Positions 1-19,684 of a DNA stretch of 64,000 nt are shown piece after piece. The translations under genes were made by a program, and so were the position numbers. How positions within the stretch are numbered: the stretch's first letter is position 1; the number at the start of each line of letters is the position of its first letter. Source of the stretch: Dacryopinax spathularia (lineage: Eukaryota; Basidiomycota; Dacrymycetes; Dacrymycetales; Dacrymycetaceae). The DNA is taken from assembly GCA_037974965.1 (NCBI GenBank), contig JBBPFI010000002.1:2418001-2482000 (forward strand). The letters are read 5' to 3'. The notes beneath the pieces were generated by a model. That model did no database searches, had not been told where the DNA came from, and saw nothing but the letters and a program-made list of their open reading frames with translations.

Positions 1-1168
1 AGCTACCTCTTAAGTTGAATACGATTCAAAGTACGTGCGGTTACGTTTGGATGGCGATGTTATTTATGTTTTTGCAGATGTCATCGGCGTCATTATATCG
101 GTTGGATCTTCGTTCCAAGTCACGAAGAACAAAGCTCGTCGTGTTCTGTCCGGACCCAGCACATTCACGCCAGTGTCCCAAATGGATGAAGTCCAAGTGA
201 AGAAGGCGTTGTTGGAATTGCAAATCGTCGACCAAACCAAGTGTGGTTGCAGGGTTGCGTTCTGGGACAAGGTCGCGACGGATTTCGATCAGTCGGTCGG
301 GTCGGTTATCGTGTTGCGGAACATCAAGATCTGCGATTTCGGCGGGATCAGCCTCAACACGCAACCGGACACGAGCATTTCGTATGACGAGGACATTCCG
401 GAAGTGAACGTTTTGCGTGCCTGGTACGTTTGCTGTTCGTTTTAATGCAAGGGTTTCGAGCTGATTACCCTGTAGGTTCGAAGAGCATGGACGTGACACA
501 ACGTTCCAAATGCTGTCCGGAGCGCATTTCAGAGCTTCTTCAGCGACTCAATTGACCAACACCGTTTTGAAAGCTGGTCCGATGACGCTGTCGGACGCAG
601 CGCAACTCATGCCCGCAGACGCGTCGGGTCACTTGTTCGAAACGGTTGTGACATTGAAAGACCTGGACAAGGAATCGTTGGCGTATAATGGCTGTCCCGA
701 GGCGGGATGTAACGGAGGGGTGAGCCGTAATCAAACGGACCCAAACGCTGCCCAATGTTCGACTTGTCGCAAGGTGTTTACGGACTTCCAACACCGGTGC
801 GTGACTGACATTGTCTCGTGGTTGTATGATATTTACGCTGTCGAAGGTATTGCTTGAAAGTGTTATTGACCGACGGCACGAAGGAACTGTGGTGTACCAT
901 ATTCGATCCGGTTGCGGAACGTATGGTTGGCGTTTCGGTCAAGGTACTGGAAGGTTTTCGGTTCGTGGGCAGTACACGTTTTGAAGGCGCGTTGAAAGCT
1001 CTTAAACGCAAGTGGAAGATGACACTGTGTGCGAAACTGGTTCGTGATCGTCCATACGTGTGGAAACGTACCTGATTGTTTTTTTGTCAGGGGAGAGCCG
1101 GTAAAATGTACACCGTGGTCAAAGCCGAACCTGTGCCGGAAACGGCGACACCAAGTGAAGAGGACTAG
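1..1168 (+). CDS. RPA1-like (RPA70) ssDNA-binding protein A, 5' partial
   Basis: Large-subunit-type replication protein A, which binds single-stranded DNA through OB folds. The gene runs off the left edge. Visible exons are about 81-423, 476-796, 847-1039 and 1091-1168; joins at 424-475, 797-846 and 1040-1090 keep frame. The first exon carries OB fold B, ending in the family signature 'ICDFGGISLNTQPD' and 'DIPEVNVLRAW'. The next carries the zinc ribbon of fold C (C-x4-C then C-x2-C: 'CPEAGC', 'CSTC') followed by 'DFQHR'. The third gives 'LWCTIFDPVAERMVG', equivalent to the end of fold C in human RPA1. The exact start of the first visible exon is uncertain: a splice acceptor ends near base 80, but the reading frame is also open from base 35. 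It converges on a second RPA1-like gene 274 bases away. The sequence is divergent, so this is probably an accessory paralogue and not the housekeeping subunit; that is inference. Confidence 0.82.
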
Positions 1169-1441
1169 GAGTGACAGGGGATACGATTCCGAAGAGTGTG
1201 CCGTGAAATGGACTGACCGCTTGACATTAACGATTATGGACACCTGTATGCATACATACCGCACCGCCCAAACAATGACGATACATCTTCCTTTGCCAAT
1301 ACGTGCTGATGATTGAATACGCGGACGTGGCCGCTTAACGCGAGACGCATACGAATCGAAGTCGTAAATTGAACACATTCATCGAACAACCGATCATACT
1401 ATTTCAATGGACGTGGACGATACAGGAAGCGTTTCATAATG

Positions 1442-3185
1442 TTACACGCGATAGATGCGAATCACCGAGCAGACGCGTAAGTGTGCCTACGTAACTACGT
1501 CACGAAAACCGTTTTGAGGGACGTGAAGGGAAACGTACCTGTACGTGCACGCGAAAGGATACACGGTAAGTGTGATGCAGTAGGCTTTGGAGTAAGTTGA
1601 CGTAAGCCGCGTTGTTCGTGCGGCGAAGATTGTCCATGTCCATAGGTGTTTCATCCCCGAATAGGGAGCGACCGGCTTCGTCATATATGCGAAAGCGAAC
1701 GGTTTGAGGAACGTGTTGGAAACGAGCCGTGATATTGAACCTGCAGCGATCAGTTCGGAACGTGAAATGTAACGTGAATGCTCACCGGCGAGTATGGAAG
1801 TCGTAGTCGTGATTGCAACGTCTGCAATACCATTTGCCGTTGACTGTGTGGTTGACGAGCGTACGGCAGTGGTCGACAGGGCATCCAGCGTACGTTATGT
1901 TGCCTTGGACGATGTCGACCAAGACGGCGTCGAACTTAGCAACGCGCCAATTCGCGAGGTTGACGATCTGTTGCGGAGACGTCCATTCTATGAAACGGTC
2001 CGGATCGTATACCGGTGAACGATACGGTATGATAACGTCGTCGTATAACTATCGCAGTGAGTCGACCATCGCACGTGGTAGACAACGCTTACCAAAGTGA
2101 ACCGAGTGTGATCGTACATGCGAACCTGCAAGTCACGACCGGCCGCGAATACGGGCAGAACAGTATCCACTCGTATTCCAGTGATACGATATATCTGTAC
2201 CATAAGTTACGTTACGTGATTTTCAACGTGAATGGGACGTACGCAGTTGAGCGGCATGATACGGAGCTGTCTACGAATTTCGCGATCCCATGTCACACCA
2301 CTGATGGTACCCTTCATGTCCTGTTAGCTGGGTACATGGACCAAACTGGTGCGTACCGTATCGTCTAACCATACGCACGCGGTATGAGCAGTGTACGCGT
2401 TCCTATCCGTCAAACGTGCCACGAACGTGACGCTATCGTTCGTCAGCCGTGAGACGTAAACGTTGGACGAGTTCAGGCATACCTTGTCATCCCGCGCACC
2501 ATATCTGCGATCCGTACAGATACGAAAACGTTCGCATTGAAACCGAGGAAAGCGTTGTTGGCCACGGCCGGAACGTACGTGACCACGTTGGGCTGTACCG
2601 ATGCCTGCAACGGTTGTTGAATGGGAACGGCTGGAGCGGGAAGAGGCCCGGCCGGAACGTGGTGCGCAGGCACGTTCAGGACGTTAGCAGGGGCGGCCTG
2701 CTGTTGCACACGGGGGTCGAGAAGCACGGGACTGCCGATGCGAAAAGGATGGCTACGTGCATGGAATTCGGCGTCGATTAATATGACCACTCTAAACGAA
2801 AGTCAGCGAAAGCGGACCGTGAACGAACTGGTCACGTACCTATAGTTGTACCTCAATTGCAGCTCCGTACGATGGACGCGTAGCAAATCGAATAGTTGCC
2901 ATTCTTCAGTGGCAACATGTTGACTGAGGTCGACGGTCAGGATAGTCCGTACGGTGTGCGTGCCGTCGCTGAGCGTCAACCTGTTTCCGGACGTTAGTGC
3001 CCGTGATCGTTTGCTCGGTAACGTTAGCAGACGTACCTGTACAACGGCGCTTCGTATTGATTTGCAGTGACATTGGCGGAGTCAATGGCAAGTATCTGAA
3101 CGACGGCGTTTGCATTTTGTGTGCTGCTGTCGTACAACAAATGGGCCGTTCCAATATCGCAAGGGTTGTTGGGCATGTCAGCCAT
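1442..3185 (-). CDS. RPA1-like (RPA70) ssDNA-binding protein B, nine exons, no OB fold B
   Basis: Second replication protein A large-subunit relative. Exons (minus strand, descending): 3037-3185, 2840-2980, 2483-2791, 2357-2432, 2243-2320, 2093-2194, 1786-2048, 1539-1740, 1442-1486. They sum to 1365 nt (454 residues) with every phase matching. Residues about 1-110 match the RPA70N domain ('LTLSDGTHTVRTIL', 'VVILIDAEF'). A Pro/Ala/Gln-rich linker follows, then OB fold A ('ACVWLDDT', 'IYRITGIRVDTVLP'), then directly the fold-C zinc ribbon ('CPVDHCRTL', 'WYCRRC') and 'VRFRIYDEAGRSLFG'. The central fold B of ordinary RPA1 (about 120 residues) is not found between A and C. Introns are 36-56 nt. 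I chose the first Met before 'ADMPNNPCDIG'; an upstream exon is possible. Sited in the Helitron-bearing island; role in transposition is only inferred. Confidence 0.85.
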
Positions 3186-5862: not shown

Positions 5863-7263
5863 TTACACTGCGAGATCGGAATCGCTATCGCCTTGTACGG
5901 TATGGTCTTCGCCTCGTTCCACGTATTCCGTATCGTCTAAGAGACAAATGGACTTCAGACCGAAAGAAGCGCGCCATTTGGCGTCGGCAGGTGTAGCCGG
6001 TGAGCGCGCCGCATGTTTCCCGGACCTGCCCGGGCTCAAGTACGAATCCATAGTACGATCACGATACCGGCTCAAGTAGGCCTCCACAAGTACCAAATCT
6101 CCTCGCTTGAGGTTCTCCGGGGCGATTGTAGTCATCTTCGCTTTAGATTGTAGGAGAATCTTAGCATCGTATACGGCCGTGAACGGTTCGTTCTGGAATA
6201 CTCAGAACGTCGTCGAGGACGTATGAACGGTACACACCACTTCGGCGGCTGCGCCCGCGACACGACGGTTCATCCACTTGCTAACGCGAATCGTGTTGTA
6301 CCCGTCGACCGGAACATGAACTGTTACAAAACGTAACGGGGTGAGTTCATTAGGATACGTCATGGCAACGTACGTGTGTTGGCGGTGTGCGTTCGAAGAA
6401 GAGATTTGCACGCAGACAAGTGGGCATTGTCCAGCAGTGTGACGGTGATACTCGCTTGACGTTCGGGTTCGCCATCGGATCGGAAGAGGTATGCACCGGC
6501 CAAGCGTCCAACCAACCATATCGTGACAGGGACGCGTTTTCGCGGATCGCAAAAATATTCGTGCGAGTCGCCGTCGAAGCGGAGCGACCAGAAACCATTT
6601 TGCGGGAATTTCGTCGGACAGTAGGTGGCGTTTTTTGCGTCGAACCAGTTCAACATTGTGTTCAACCGCCTGCGAAGGTAGACACGTCAACGGCTGGTTT
6701 CGGTTACGACCTGTTGAACGAACCTGTTCAGAGCTGGTTCCACACCCCAGTCTCGATTCATATTCGTGTCGTCCAACTGTTATGTTCGTCAGGTCGAACA
6801 TGAGCATGTACAGCAACGCGTGTATACACACATAAGGGCCCAGGGAGTCTGACCGATTGGAACGGCTAACGTTTTCCGACCTGCCACGCAGTTAATTACG
6901 CTTGATCACGATACCCGTTAAGAGTATTCACTCCACCATAGCGTCGTTACCAACGAGATTCGTGAACGGATCCGACGGAACGGCACTATGGCATCGAATT
7001 ACTATGACGAACAAACAAGACATGAATTCCGTGACGCACCGACTCGTCGTGACAGGGACGGGGGAGGTTACCAAACCCGTTTCCCCGATTTCTTGTTCGA
7101 CTTCGACCTGGTCCAGATCCGTATCGTCTTGCGGCATCTTTGCAGTGGACCTGTACAAGATAAGCCCACTACAACGAAAACAGCAGGGTACTGACCGTGT
7201 ACGTTTGGCCTCGGGCACGGAAGGTGGCCCTGGCGTTGTGGGAGCGTAACGTTTCGTACCCAT
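5863..7263 (-). CDS. Orphan spliced gene with C-terminal GD-x-V-x-VE element (A)
   Basis: Not recognised. Proposed exons (descending): 7196-7263, about 7072-7150, 6724-6776, 6374-6669, 6238-6320, 5863-6192; the sum is a multiple of three (about 302 residues), but a further small exon in the 6777-7071 gap is possible. The N-terminus is basic and Pro-rich ('MGTKRYAPTTPGPPSVPEAK'), followed by an acidic stretch. The middle is beta-rich in appearance ('RVPVTIWLVGRLAGAYLF', 'ASITVTLLDNAHL'). The C-terminal part reads 'ENLKRGDLVLVEAYLSRYR', then 'WRASFGLKSICLLDD'. The same kind of element ends the divergently transcribed gene at 7678-8705. The alternating hydrophobic strands would suit an OB-like fold, but that is a guess. 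It is divergent from that gene across 414 bases. Confidence 0.55.
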
Positions 7264-11643: not shown

Positions 11644-14600
11644 CTAACGGGTCTGGACAGACCCATCCTGTCTGACATCGGGAGCAAGAGACCCTGTTTG
11701 ACCAAACTGACCCAGACCCTCCAATCTGCCCATTTCAGCACGCAACTCACCGGATAAACTCGAAAACAAAATGTTAGTACGGAAGTCCCGTAGGAGTAGT
11801 AAGCCACGTAGGTCATGAACCCTAGACAACATGACGTACATGCTCTGTAGATTATCGCACGCACTAATATCGACAATGGCCGCTTGCAAAGATCGACCTT
11901 GAGCCTTATAATCGGTATAGGAATACGCTGGCACAAGAGGCACCTGCAATCGTCGAACTGGGTAACCAGCATGCTTCGGGTAGGGCCTGTAATGGAACGT
12001 GGTCTTCACGGGCATGAGAGGCACAACATCCGCTGGGAGACCATAACCAACCATATCCGAACCCGGTATGTGTACGAATACCGTCACTACGTACCGGACA
12101 CCATCCTCAACGTTATACTTGATGGATACGACGGTTCCCTCCATGCCGTTCACGACCTTGTAACGTATTGCAACGTTCTCCGTCACCATCACCTTCATAC
12201 CGACACACAATGGCAGGCTACCGAATGCGTCATGTGTGACACTCGAGGAAACCTTCCATAACCGTCGGCGAATTTCACCCTGAACTGTGGTTCCTCTCAC
12301 ACTATCCTTCGAATGGTACATTTCGACCGATTGACCAGACCGCGCTGCGTAACGTTTGATAGCTCGCATGTTCAATTGATCGCGCACCAAACGTGTTGTG
12401 ACGATGTACGGCGCGTCCCGAAACCGCTCGATTTCGGCAGGCGCATGATGTTGAAGCCATGAAAGCGTTCGTTTCCGCAACACGGTGTCGTCGGATTCTA
12501 CAAAGTCAATCCCGACAACGTTTGATGCGTTCCACCTGACCGACTTTCCGTCCCAAGCCTTCCCAATTCGAACACGATCCAGCAAACGGGCGTAACGCAT
12601 GTCCGAACGTTGACGAACGTTTTGCGTTAACAAAACGACCGATTGCACTTGCCTCCAAAGGAAAACGCCTTGCATGGCCGATTGGCCTCCGAGCGTATGT
12701 ACCACTTCGTTGTTTAAGTCGCGAACGATTCGGTGATCGAAAACACTCTTAGCCCGAACAGGACGTAATTGGCCGAAATCACCGAAAAACAATACGCTGA
12801 TCCCCCCGAAAGGAGACGTGCACCGGTGTTGTAACGTACTCTTGACGTCCATTAAACGGTGGTTCAGCGGGCTCAACAATTGGGCGCTTACCATCGAGAT
12901 TTCGTCAATGACAAGGTACCGGACAGATGCCCAAAAGGAACGCAAATACGACAAATCTGCAACCCGACTTTTCCGGTCATTCAACATCGCAGCAGAATGG
13001 ATCGTCGTACCACCGATATTGACCGCAGCTATACCGGTTGGTGCGGTTAACAGAAGCGAACGCTCCATACCGAGCTTTGTGAACAAAGCCACGATCGCTC
13101 GAATCACATGGCTCTTACCGGTTCCAGCCGTACCACCCACATACATCAACATAGGCTCCGCTGTGGAGCCTTGAGCCAAATGGTCACCTACCATCTTCAA
13201 AGCACGGAATTGTTCTTCATTGCCGACTATATCCATGGCACGTGCGATATCGTCTACGGTTCCCTGAACGTCAATCCCACTGGACGGCGATGGTGCATTC
13301 CTATACATCAAACGGTCATAATCGATCGACGGAAGCATCATTGGACGGAGCATGGGCGGCCCTCCATGTTCAGGCCCATCCTCGTCAACCGGCCGTTTCC
13401 TTGCACGTACCATGACGGCAGCCAATTGGGTAAGATACGTTTGGTCCGTACCGGAAACGTCTTCTACTCCATGGTTGTTTGCCGGAGCGACACATGGCTC
13501 GACGTGGAACAAACCGCTTCGTACTATGTCCACCATGGTCGACTGGAAACGTTGATCGACCGGCCCGCGTTCGTCGTGTCCATCCAACTGGACGTCGTCT
13601 AGGATGGCGTGTTCGAACGGATCAACGTCTGAGAACTCTACTCCAGACGCACGCAACAACGAACCACGACGGCCTGTTGCCCTCCTAGAACGATTATACT
13701 CGTCTCGAACATCGCGACATTCCCGCTGTATGCAAAGGTTATCAATCAGGCAAAGATCATCTTGATTAAATTCTGTACGTTCGAAAGCGTGTGACCACGT
13801 CTCGTTCGCGCGTCTCAAGTCGCATGGAACTCGCCAAGGACTGAACAAGATCAGCATCATCCAGCACCAGGCATCGTATTCGGCCGGATCACCATCCCTT
13901 CGAGGTACAGATGGACCCAAGAGTACCGGGAAAACAGGTAATTCACGATGGCGAACAAAATGGGTATCGTGCTGGACATGATTTTCTTGGAAAAGGCCCC
14001 GTGGAGAGGGACGCTTCCCCAACGGCGCCGATCCGGCTCCTAAACGCGAAAGCCTGTCGGATTCATGATTCGATGGAACTTTATCCATGTTCGCAACATA
14101 ATTCCACAAGGAGATACCGTCCACGAACGCGTCGTCGGGACGATACATATAGTCCTGAAGTTGGTTGGACGCGGTAACCGACTCGTTCGTAAAAGATAAG
14201 TACATTACCTCGTCATACGTTTGTTCGTCGAGATCATGATCCTGTTCTTCGTCATAGCAGCGGCAAGGCCACGAAGAAACGTATTCAATCGATCTTGTAG
14301 ATTCCTCTTCCCGGAAATGATGCGACACCATCTTGTGAAACGCGCCCCAATGCAACGGCCTGTACATTGCACTAACGTATCGATCTCCGTAACCGAGAAG
14401 ATAAGCCATGACCTGAGGATGTGATATTTCCGTTCGAGACATCATAAGGTTTACCACACGTATCAGACGAGACCGCTTCGTTGCGTCTACGTCGTCGTCC
14501 TCACACGACGGCATGCTACCGAGGACAGAAATTGCATGGGACAGGGCGGATACACCTTCGTACAACGGCAAGGCAGTCTTTGTGACATAGTCCGTGATAT

Positions 14601-17472
14601 AATACATGAGCGCCTTCGACGCATGTCCGGAACCGATAAATTTAATATCCATGTTACAACGGAACAAATAAATACATATATCGTTATAATTCGTGATCCA
14701 GGGATGTAAACGGCGGACAGCAAGAACACCGTTTGTGTCCACGTCTGTACATGGCCGCGTGGTTCCATCCATTCTCATGCGACAATTGGAGTTGACTTTC
14801 TTTTCACCCGGCCTCAGATATTTCCAACACGTCGCTGTGTGTACATGCCAATTACATCGCGTCGCCAAGGATGTGACCTCTTCGTTCAGTACACGTTCGA
14901 ACTCCGAGTCCGCCAAGTCTGACGTGTCCGGTACCTCACGCGTACGTGGATCGACACCTGGCTGTAAACGCGGACGTTCATCCGATTCAACCGGAACAAC
15001 TTCATGTTGACCGGGAAGTTCGGATTTGATAATGTCCTCTAACCAATTAACAAGCGAGGTTTTGTATTGCGCATGGCTCAGCAACCGTTCCTGCATCGTT
15101 TGAGGGTTCAAGTGATCTTCTAACCAAACGACGAAATGACAATGCAACGTGCCCCTTCCCTGTGCCTCGACCATACCGTAGTAACCTGTGCAACGACCGA
15201 ACAGGCCGACTTCGTTCCGTCCATAACGTAACACAGACGTCACAAAGGAACGCATGACCACATCAAAGAAACGAGCGGCAGTGGCAGGATTCTTTGCGAC
15301 GGTAACCGACCGGGCGAATGCGTTAACCTCTGCATCCCCTGCTAGCGCACGATCGAGGTCCAAAGAGGGATCGTTGAAGACACGCACCAAAGGGTGCCCA
15401 CGATCGTACGGGTTGATGGTAATGAACAAGGCTGGAGTCGACAAGCAATTCGAACTACTACGAAGCTCGTTACGACAGCGTACTTTGTTACCCGCCGTGC
15501 CGGGAATGTCAGCTACGCACAAGTTCAGAGACTTCATTACACGAACTATTTTACGTTCATCATCGTTGACAGGCGCATCTGACGAGCAAGATCGCAATCG
15601 AACGAGATAGGACTCGAGGGAGTCAAGGGAAATGGTTTGCAAGTCCGCGAATATACGTTCCCGATGCGACGCCCGAATACGAAACCGCAAGGTACTCACC
15701 ACAATCCTTTTCCGGATGATATTATAACACACGAATGCGAAAGAAGCGTCAGCCGCAAACGGAGAGTTGTACAACGACAACAAATGTTTTACCTGTCTTG
15801 ACATGTCAACCCGATGCCCATGACCATCCATACCAAAACCACCCAAACCAAAGGGATCGAGCTTCGGCCACATCCACGTCAACAAGTGGTACGAATCGAA
15901 ATCGCCGACAGGTACGTTCCCCGCTCGGGAACGAATAAACGAGTTGCCCCGCAAGCACCAAGACAATGCCGTGGCCTTCATCTGGTCATAACCGACATTG
16001 GTAAGATCCGCATCCGTCCAACCCACGGTATCGACCAGAACGTCATCCGCCGAACCGGGAACAAGATCGTCTTCGGGAACGTATCCAGCGGCGACGTTTG
16101 CAGACGAGTCGAAAGACGGCAACCGGCCGATTGTGACAGACGGCGGCAAGGAACGGGATCCATCGCTGCCTAAAGCACGCATGTTCTGCTCATCCATCAC
16201 GGCGGACCTCAAAAACCCGTCCACAGGGAGACTGTACGCCGGATTATTCCGGATCAGAAACGTTATGATACAACGTACCACAGACGGATCCACCAATACT
16301 GGACAAAATCGCCGGATTTCCTGCTCAGTCAATCGGGCATGACCCGAGAAAAGCACCACCACGGACTTACCCACTTCGTCTGGCGGGGGAGGCAACACAT
16401 GGTTAAGGACCAAACTATCCTGCGGCAAGATCATAACGTTTCCCTTTGAATACGATTGCGAACTTGCACGTGCTTGCCCAACGCCCTCGTTACCCGCACG
16501 TTCACTATACTTAAATGCAATTGAATTGCCACGTACCCGAGCGACCAGGAGCAGATCGAATGCTGACGCCTGGCAAAAAGCCGAGGCAACCGGACCCGGC
16601 AGCTTGTCGTATGCAAAATAATAACCGTTTGCGATAGCAAATTCGGGCGTCTTACCACGTTTCAGGCTGGCCAAACACGTTCTGCACACGTACATGTCAC
16701 CTTCGCACCTTTCCAACTCCTGCAAAGCACGAGGATCCAACAGAGCACCTCCATATGCCTCAACATTATACGTACTTGGCATCAAATGAGGAGGCACCGA
16801 AACGTTTCTCAACAAGGAAAAGTCAATATCTCGAACGGGCGAAGGTATAAGATCGACTGCTACAGTCCCAACAGAACACACCGCGCACGGGGATAAACGT
16901 TGAGTATCAACGGACAAGAAACGGCTTACTTCGTTCACAATGGCCCGTTTATCGGCGAACAGTAAAGGCATCGGCCCCGTACCGTACAACGGCGTACGAT
17001 TCCGGTCGTCGGCCTCACTAACGTGCGATGGCATAACATCGACCGCAGGTACCGACCTAGTTCGCGATTCATGGCGACGTCGGGAACGGATACGAAAAAC
17101 GCAGCACACCGCAACGCACTTGGTACACTCGCAGCGGGATGATGATAGATACTCGCGAAAACGGCGAACGGGCCATCGAACTGCAACGACTGCTCCGCCA
17201 TGACCACAAACGGACAAGTCGTATAAGTTCCGAGTACTGAAAAACCGAAAACAACGAGAGAATACGTTAAGCGATACACCGTGCCAAACGATGAACCGGG
17301 GATCGTCCAGATAACAATCCCGAATCGCGTACTCAACGTTTTGGAAGACACCCACACAATCATACCAAACGTTCAATTCACCATCCGTTACGATTACAGA
17401 CCCATCCTCGACGTGCCGAAGCGGCGCGGGAACACCGGGCTCGACAGCGACGGAAAGTACCATGGACAGCAA
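11644..17472 (-). mobile_element. Helitron replicase-helicase (Rep/Hel), single 1942-residue frame
   Basis: Rolling-circle DNA transposase gene, one uninterrupted minus-strand frame. In order: Cys pairs near residues 197 and 265 ('CRTCLASLKRGKTPEFAIANG', the N-terminal block usual in fungal Helitrons, DUF6570-like); the Helitron-like N/Rep region with the HUH motif 'GTLHCHFVVWLE' near residue 777 and the tyrosine motif 'MYYITDYVTK' near 960; then a PIF1-type superfamily-1 helicase with Walker A 'GGTAGTGKSH' near 1450, Walker B 'LVIDEISMVS' near 1520, 'FFGDFGQLRPV', and the late motifs 'YTDYKAQGRSLQ' and 'YVMLSRVHDLRGL'. All catalytic blocks I can recognise are present, so it looks intact and perhaps recently active. 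The coordinates are those of the gene; I could not fix the element ends (5' TC, 3' CTRR with hairpin). Confidence 0.93.
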
Positions 17473-17676
17473 CGTACGCGGACAGAAATGCTAGGAGCAG
17501 ACCGTCAGGACACGCCATGGACAGAGCAACGAAATGTACGACCACACACAGGAAGAACGGAAACAGAACGGACACAACCGATACGTCACATTCGCAGACA
17601 CCTTACCTCCGGGGCGAAGCCGGCCCGAAGGATTCAAATCGAAACCATAAAGCCGAAACATGGACCAGCTGATAGC

Positions 17677-19233: not shown

Positions 19234-19684
19234 GCTGGACAGTAGCGGTTCGAACGATAAAAAACGTTTTTGAACGTTAGGAGGAGGCGCGGAAGCCTAT
19301 GCGTACCCTAACGAACGCTTCCGATGACAAGCACGTGACGCACGCACGGCCACCGGCGGCCGGTAACCGGGATCAAACGTTACCCCGAAATTGACCCGCA
19401 CAAAAAAACACGAGTTAGGCATTTAGAGACCTGGTCCCAAGGTCCCAGGAATCGCGATACCCTCAGGGAGGGGTCACGTGATTGCTATGCTTGGGCTGCT
19501 CCTTTACCGGGGAATCCGAGGTGTATAGAGGTACATTTATACAACATAAAACGAAACGAACATCAACGTGAGTATATCGGACAATGAGGGTATCTCGTGC
19601 ACATGGGTAAAGTCTCGTCAAAAAAAGAGAGAGGAAAAAGCGTCCCGTCAACTCAGCCACCCCAGTCCAGCCAGACATCAAACG
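19234..19684. other. Boundary between accessory island and conserved genes
   Basis: 451 bases without a supported gene. Around 19340-19390 lies a GC-rich, self-complementary stretch (CCGGCGGCCGG core). To its left the DNA has the CGTA-rich look of the island; to its right it has the pyrimidine/purine-biased look of the conserved genes. A Helitron terminus may lie here but no clean TC or CTRR end could be assigned. Confidence 0.4.

Follow-up and report, generated by a model that had tools for sequence, protein, structure and literature searches.

The question raised by this locus is whether the two convergent RPA1-like genes at its edge belong to the host or, as proposed in a preliminary description, are accessory RPA paralogues dedicated to a mobile element or to ssDNA handling. 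The analysed stretch (the window) comprises 64,000 nucleotides, C2:2418001-2482000, of the 29.2-Mb genome of Dacryopinax spathularia (24 contigs); positions are those of the window, with negative numbers for nucleotides that precede it. In all likelihood, a Helitron2-type element owns these RPA1-like, presumably ssDNA-binding proteins as long-term residents, co-inherited with its Rep/Hel protein and kept under purifying selection, with strand coating as their inferred role.

Both convergent genes reported for the first 3185 nucleotides are indeed present, intron-rich, and endowed with RPA70 domains according to Pfam and profile comparisons. Their structures, obtained with a home-made predictor, are as follows:

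-1067 to 1168, plus strand: full-length RPA1-like gene, 11 exons, 583 aa
Exons of this gene ahead of the window: -1067 to -937, -887 to -747, -696 to -505, -459 to -366, -320 to -252, -203 to -102
Exons of this gene in the window: 1-30 (exon begins at -54), 78-423, 476-796, 847-1039, 1091-1168
3185 to 1442, minus strand: fold-B-less RPA1-like gene, nine exons, introns 44-78 bp, 436 aa
Exons of this gene: 3185-3037, 2968-2840, 2791-2483, 2432-2379, 2300-2243, 2194-2093, 2048-1786, 1740-1539, 1486-1442

The plus-strand gene starts 1,067 bp ahead of the window, where six of its exons and part of the seventh are located, and its ten introns (45-52 bp) are all of the GT-AG type. Pfam identified all four domains expected in RPA1, in the order RPA70N-A-B-C (Rep-A_N, 1.3e-10; OB fold PF01336, 6.3e-8; REPA_OB_2, 4.9e-12; Rep_fac-A_C, 2.4e-16), and the protein matches human RPA70 in the PDB (1.4e-39). 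Folds A, B and C each reached 99% in the same profile comparison as was used for the minus-strand gene, and four cysteines occupy the zinc positions of fold C. Protein database searches with both RPA models returned no match at the set thresholds, a result that is uninformative, as the candidate step was word-based.

The minus-strand gene is laid out as RPA70N, an A-like fold and fold C. Pfam reported Rep_fac-A_C (1.6e-13) and Rep-A_N (1e-4; 22.7 bits, under the 26.7-bit cut-off) and matched neither the fold-A nor the fold-B family. Profile comparison with hhalign recognised RPA70N (97.7%), fold C (98.7%) and fold A (75% with the middle segment and 53% with the entire protein as the query); just 1-2% was obtained for fold B, or 7% for one short segment. 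The A-like residues stop at 271 and fold C starts at 310, and the A and C exons are split by an intron of 44 bp, too short to hold a missed fold-B exon, so that fold B is truly absent from the gene. The earlier description of nine exons, with RPA70N and fold A leading straight into fold C, holds; the length given there was 454 residues, and our model has 436 aa (the last exon has three possible acceptors, yielding 432, 436 or 476 aa). Our own earliest models of this gene excised the zinc ribbon and were dropped, because the part so removed is open and encodes the expected cysteines.

Both genes turned out to lie in a mobile element with the following features:

-1942 (3' end, C2:2416058) to 19450 (5' end, C2:2437450), minus strand: Helitron2-type element, 21.4 kb
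19430 to 19450, minus strand: 5' end TCCTGGGACCTTGGGACCAGG, containing the 5' arm of the asymmetric terminal inverted repeat and the predicted 5' hairpin, preceded by T
11644 to 17490, minus strand: Rep/Hel frame, 1948 aa from stop to stop, with DUF6570, Helitron_like_N and PIF1
5917 to 6761 (match pieces 6363-6761 and 5917-6324), minus strand: conserved accessory gene, ~230 aa
3413 to 4893, minus strand: possible F-box/LRR-type cargo (weak; F-box-like E 0.072 and LRR_14 E 0.062, both below the cut-off)

The segment C2:2416057-2437458 (window -1943 to 19458) aligns as a single block, with 98.57% identity, to C11:771014-792431, and the flanks of the two copies are unrelated to each other. One delimited 21.4-kb repeat encloses both RPA genes, situated at its 3' end, and the Rep/Hel frame. 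Read on the minus strand, its exact ends are TCCTGGGACCTTGG... and ...CAAGGTCCCAGGTTTGCCCGGAGGGTTTTCTCTA, the latter followed by T; the arms of a 12-bp inverted repeat (CCTGGGACCTTG/CAAGGTCCCAGG) are separated from the 5' and 3' ends by 1 nt and 22 nt, respectively, and short hairpins are predicted at both (-4.4 kcal/mol at the 5' end, -1.1 kcal/mol at the 3' end). The Rep/Hel frame matches Helitron_like_N (1.4e-25) and PIF1 (6.5e-26) in Pfam and includes what we take to be the HUH motif (HCH, within 15153-15118), the tyrosine motif (YYITDY, within 14604-14578) and Walker A (GGTAGTGKS, 13137-13111). The best relative of this Rep/Hel was encountered in Calocera viscosa (48% across the query region), which, as far as one gene can tell, points to a host that is probably a basidiomycete close to the Dacrymycetes. 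The Rep frame of the C11 copy carries in-frame stops (one TAG in one search, two in the alignment); both RPA frames of this copy are open, with GT..AG at all 18 introns. The Helitron context claimed earlier for the RPA genes has thus been narrowed to one delimited Helitron, with terminal structures at both ends and Rep/Hel within.

The accessory gene matched no Pfam family at E 1, nor did its profile yield a meaningful PDB relative. It is present at seven places of the window-type Helitron family (the window, C11:779k, C1:1084.6k, C4:713.4k, C7:6.3k, C6:1694.2k and C2:2560.9k), with an additional weak match at C2:2204107, inside an element.

As to the class of the element, its Rep/Hel protein combines the HUH and tyrosine motifs with a PIF1 helicase, as in Helitron2, and its inverted repeat agrees with the asymmetric terminal inverted repeats of that class, described in the available part of PMC3627910 as 8-15 bp long, with the 5' arm 0-2 bp and the 3' arm 20-30 bp from the end. 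No AP endonuclease domain, which in Helentrons is fused to Rep/Hel, was matched by Pfam at E 0.01 in the 1948-aa Rep/Hel frame. Canonical Helitron1 elements have 5'-TC and CTRR-3' ends and no 5' inverted repeat or hairpin; the window element also starts with TC, but its last bases before the T are CTCTA, and inverted-repeat arms lie close to each of its ends. Judged by its ends and Rep/Hel, it is a Helitron2, and neither a Helentron (by the endonuclease criterion) nor a canonical Helitron1.

An exon-by-exon Pfam search of the genome yielded at least 45 Rep, at least 22 fold-C, at least 18 fold-B and at least 5 RPA70N matches. Merging the fold-C and fold-B matches, some of them under the curated cut-off, gave 28 RPA1-like places, for 18 of which the distance to one of 45 Reps is 20 kb or less; such zones make up 6.1% of the genome (binomial 1e-15). 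One of the 18 (C2:1459007) sits in an element with terminal inverted repeats (TIR element, see below), which leaves 17 Helitron candidates. The ten places that are not near a Rep comprise the host gene and a host-type paralogue on C5, two TIR-element copies (C2:96959 and C1:2277783) and six others (C9:169k, C8:1126k, C7:13k, C13:394k, C15:372k and C5:1637k); the match scores at C7:13k equal those of the copies located at C1:1078k and C4:720k, both of which have Reps. The housekeeping RPA1 is a separate gene at C2:1.634 Mb (1.3e-158 to U. maydis RPA1), and the co-occurrence of RPA1-like copies with Rep, raised as a check in the preliminary description, recurs at other loci. By this linkage, RPA1-like genes are regular cargo of Helitrons in this genome.

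The C5 paralogue (C5:1769-1771k, L013) is a second RPA1 of the host type; it comprises RPA70N and folds A-C and ends in a helix-like tail. The RPA1-like genes at C9:164-169k (L024) and C8:1126k (L038) are related to each other, have an altered zinc ribbon and, in the models, long acidic tails, and adjoin neither a detected Rep nor a 3' end. These genes on C5, C8 and C9, none of them near a detected Rep, could be cited in favour of the view that the window genes are host-domesticated RPA paralogues lying by chance in repeat-rich islands; we regard it as highly improbable, since the window genes lie between the ends of an element and recur with all of it at the unrelated C11 site. Among the Reps, six places score 212-221 bits (C5:590k, C1:2180k, C2:2052k, C15:90k, C2:1468k and C8:684k) and the other 39 score 91-129 bits; the former perhaps represent a second Helitron class in the genome.

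The TIR element is a 5.5-kb repeat with an RPA1-like gene, found in L022 (546-6036; C2:1456046-1461536), L023 (504-5988) and L025. Its inverted ends share ACTTTCCGCCACC and two of the three copies show apparent 9-bp flanking repeats, on account of which these loci were rejected as Helitron families. They look like a MULE-type element bearing an RPA of the Helitron kind.

Returning to Helitrons that carry RPA, we located 16 3' termini beside RPA genes, at 15 loci. The 3' stem reads CCC-GGA-GGG in the window and C11 copies and CGC-GGA-GCG in the remaining 14, i.e. it is altered yet still paired across families, which supports the 3' hairpin. T precedes four of four 5' ends and follows all 16 3' ends, the 3' T being independent of the search pattern in only five alignment-bounded copies. 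A general search of 22 loci (CCAGG, short hairpin, CTAT) found a 3'-end structure adjoining the RPA gene at 13 Helitron-type loci and one dissimilar match in L022, and none at the host gene, the C5 paralogue, L023, L024 or L025. Strict patterns, learned from sister elements and matching neither of the window's own ends, gave 21 exact 3'-end and 11 5'-end matches genome-wide (reversed controls: 0 and 0).

With the two window-type termini, the 3' ends total 23; for 16 of these, a Rep was detected on the element side at no more than 25 kb. RPA lies between Rep and the 3' end in 14 of these 16, a biased rate, as RPA-bearing loci served to derive the patterns, and two of the 14 (C12:304581 and 304945) share one Rep and RPA. 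At the other two (C1:465759 and C8:1152397) a Rep and no RPA was found, so RPA may be dispensable. Neither Rep nor RPA accompanies seven of the 23; among these, C2:2929093, C3:2266061 and C4:16657 each pair with a 5' end at a distance of 0.6-0.7 kb and resemble short non-autonomous copies. Both ends were located, with Rep and RPA inside, for nine elements, namely the window and C11 copies and the following:

C1:1300942-1318520
C2:2197463-2209104
C5:445477-462879
C7:219154-235830
C9:1151220-1167865
C12:839668-856344
C12:293131-304599

On C12, two 5' ends (293131 and 293173) are 42 bp apart and two 3' ends (304581 and 304945) are 364 bp apart; from the spacing of these predicted ends, one Helitron is nested in or adjoins another. 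Among the window-type relatives, those at C6:1688k and C2:2565k have a similar 3' end under a looser pattern, and none was detected within the 4 kb examined at C1:1078k.

In an unrooted tree of RPA folds A-C, host RPA1, the C5 paralogue and the human and U. maydis proteins form one group with 100% support, which contains no Helitron RPA; the tree places neither window gene as the sole host RPA1 orthologue. The plus-strand gene groups with the RPAs of C6:1688k, C2:2565k and C1:1078k (87% split). The minus-strand gene groups with other Helitron RPAs and that of the TIR element (95% split), on a very long branch that makes its placement uncertain. The window element therefore seems to hold two RPA lineages. 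The Rep-domain tree comprises 13 domains, nine of which (one a shorter fragment) were compared with the RPA tree, leaving aside three without a detected RPA and one with an incomplete RPA model. Over these nine loci the two trees share six of six splits, a result equalled by 2 of 5000 label permutations; support in the Rep tree is low at some nodes (25, 39, 50). The RPA-free elements at C1:456k and C8:1161k nest, with low support, among RPA-bearing ones, which suggests loss or an undetected RPA.

These data bear on passive gene capture, i.e. the chance pick-up of host RPA1 copies with no role in transposition. Helitrons are known to capture genes (see the available part of PMC6431247), and a related RPA1-like gene also resides in the non-Helitron 5.5-kb element with 9-bp flanking repeats. 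Nonetheless, the absence of every Helitron RPA of the tree from the host clade, the congruence of the Rep and RPA trees, the position of RPA between Rep and the 3' end and the purifying selection described below make such capture a very unlikely account.

Comparison of the C2 and C11 copies gave NG86 dN/dS values of 0.19 (plus-strand gene), 0.12 (minus-strand gene) and 0.34 (Rep), the two RPA genes together showing 21 synonymous and 11 nonsynonymous changes (P 4e-7). Among other Helitron RPAs the values are 0.05-0.07 (L014/L020/L021), 0.13 (L015/L016) and 0.03 (L036/L039); the pair L024/L038, which is not near a Rep, has 0.21, and two further pairs were saturated. Judging by these ratios (0.03-0.19 where measurable), the Helitron RPA genes are under purifying selection. 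As for the minus-strand gene, its weak fold A, missing fold B and very long branch, together with the finding of its own sequence solely in the C2 and C11 copies, could mean that it is a decaying RPA fragment with no working protein; we consider this unlikely, given that its nine exons are open and its eight introns GT-AG in both copies, that the 21-base length difference of the C11 copy is in frame, and that 10 changes are synonymous versus 4 nonsynonymous. The proposal of accessory RPA paralogues dedicated to a mobile element is supported by linkage, tree congruence and purifying selection taken together.

The Helitron-located models (13) were inspected at human RPA70 positions F238, F269, W361 and F386, which we take to be the base-stacking residues: an aromatic residue is present in 13/13, 12/13, 12/12 (models with fold B) and 6/12, respectively. 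All 13 have the four zinc cysteines; a basic residue occurs at human R210 in five and at R234 in none. The C-terminal helix of RPA1 joins it to RPA2 and RPA3 in the trimer. Six closed models allow an assessment of this tail, the rest having been cut by hand after fold C: by sequence alone, the helix is absent from five (both window proteins, L012, L015 and L021), and L039 has an unclassifiable 17-residue tail. A helix-like tail is present in host RPA1 and the C5 paralogue. Both window proteins therefore probably act without the host partners RPA2 and RPA3. RPA2 (PF08784) was found at one place, C7:318819, ~97 kb from the nearest listed Rep, and hence provides no evidence for a complete element-borne trimer; the search for RPA14 (PF08661) had no match anywhere, controls included, and is uninformative.

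In the general model of Helitron transposition, a nick is made by Rep at the 5' end, and a strand is then peeled off by the helicase up to the 3' hairpin. In the window element, Rep would likewise nick the 5' end and the helicase displace the strand as far as the 3' hairpin, and the element's own RPA would coat the displaced single strand, or a circular intermediate made by Rep/Hel, in place of or alongside host RPA. Lacking the C-terminal helix, the element RPAs would probably work without RPA2/RPA3, and the fold-B-less protein, seemingly of another lineage, may be a lower-affinity version or a partner subunit. One may speculate further that the full-length and fold-B-less RPAs form a private two-part complex, independent of RPA2/RPA3, which would replace the host trimer on the transposition intermediate and shield that intermediate from the host damage checkpoint, but we consider this elaboration unlikely.

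RPA in Helitrons is already known from plants and animals (PMC3288121, PMC4683698, PMC4067079, PMC6431247), where its purpose is still unproven. Within the accessible text of the open-licence PMC literature (PMC4289320, PMC5148889, PMC4067079, PMC3627910, PMC4683698, PMC12730594, PMC3288121, PMC10799480, PMC6431247), no RPA-bearing fungal Helitron is described. The present 29-Mb fungal genome holds many of them, with recent copies, delimited ends and Rep and RPA evolving in step. Its variants (full-length, fold-B-less and apparently RPA-free) form a natural series, which, together with the recent copies, makes the role of RPA in Helitron transposition testable by comparison and experiment.

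Among fungal systems, as represented in the available text, the window element shares asymmetric terminal inverted repeats, predicted hairpins and a 5' end with T with Helitron2 (PMC3627910) and FoHeli (PMC5148889), and the distance of its 3' arm from the end is similar to theirs (20-30 bp and about 20-40 bp, respectively). FoHelis are about 5-11 kb long, in contrast to 21.4 kb here, and RPA1-like genes, carried by the window element, were reported as not found in them (PMC5148889). The Helitrons of Pleurotus ostreatus (PMC4289320) likewise reside in a basidiomycete and encode Rep/Hel; RPA was reported as not found there, a statement limited to the RepHel ORF.

Animal Helentrons, in the accessible sections of PMC4067079, have in common with the window element a Rep/Hel accompanied by a separate RPA1-like gene, subterminal inverted repeats and, apparently, T-T insertion, but differ in the AP endonuclease family, which the window frame lacks by the Pfam search above; Helentron proteins have also been reported in fungi (PMC4067079). 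The mite Helentron RPA has 358 aa, no introns and folds A and B, whereas the plus-strand gene of the window has introns, RPA70N and fold C, and is one of two RPA genes in its element (PMC4067079). In plants, maize ZmhelB (PMC3288121) and rice Mothra (PMC4683698) resemble the window element in linking RPA1-like DBD-A/B/C to Rep/Hel, and the plant Helitron RPAs form a clade outside the host core RPA, as here, according to the available parts of both papers. In ZmhelB the RPA domains are situated within the Rep/Hel ORF (PMC3288121), whereas the window element carries them in separate convergent genes, one without fold B, between ends of the Helitron2 type.
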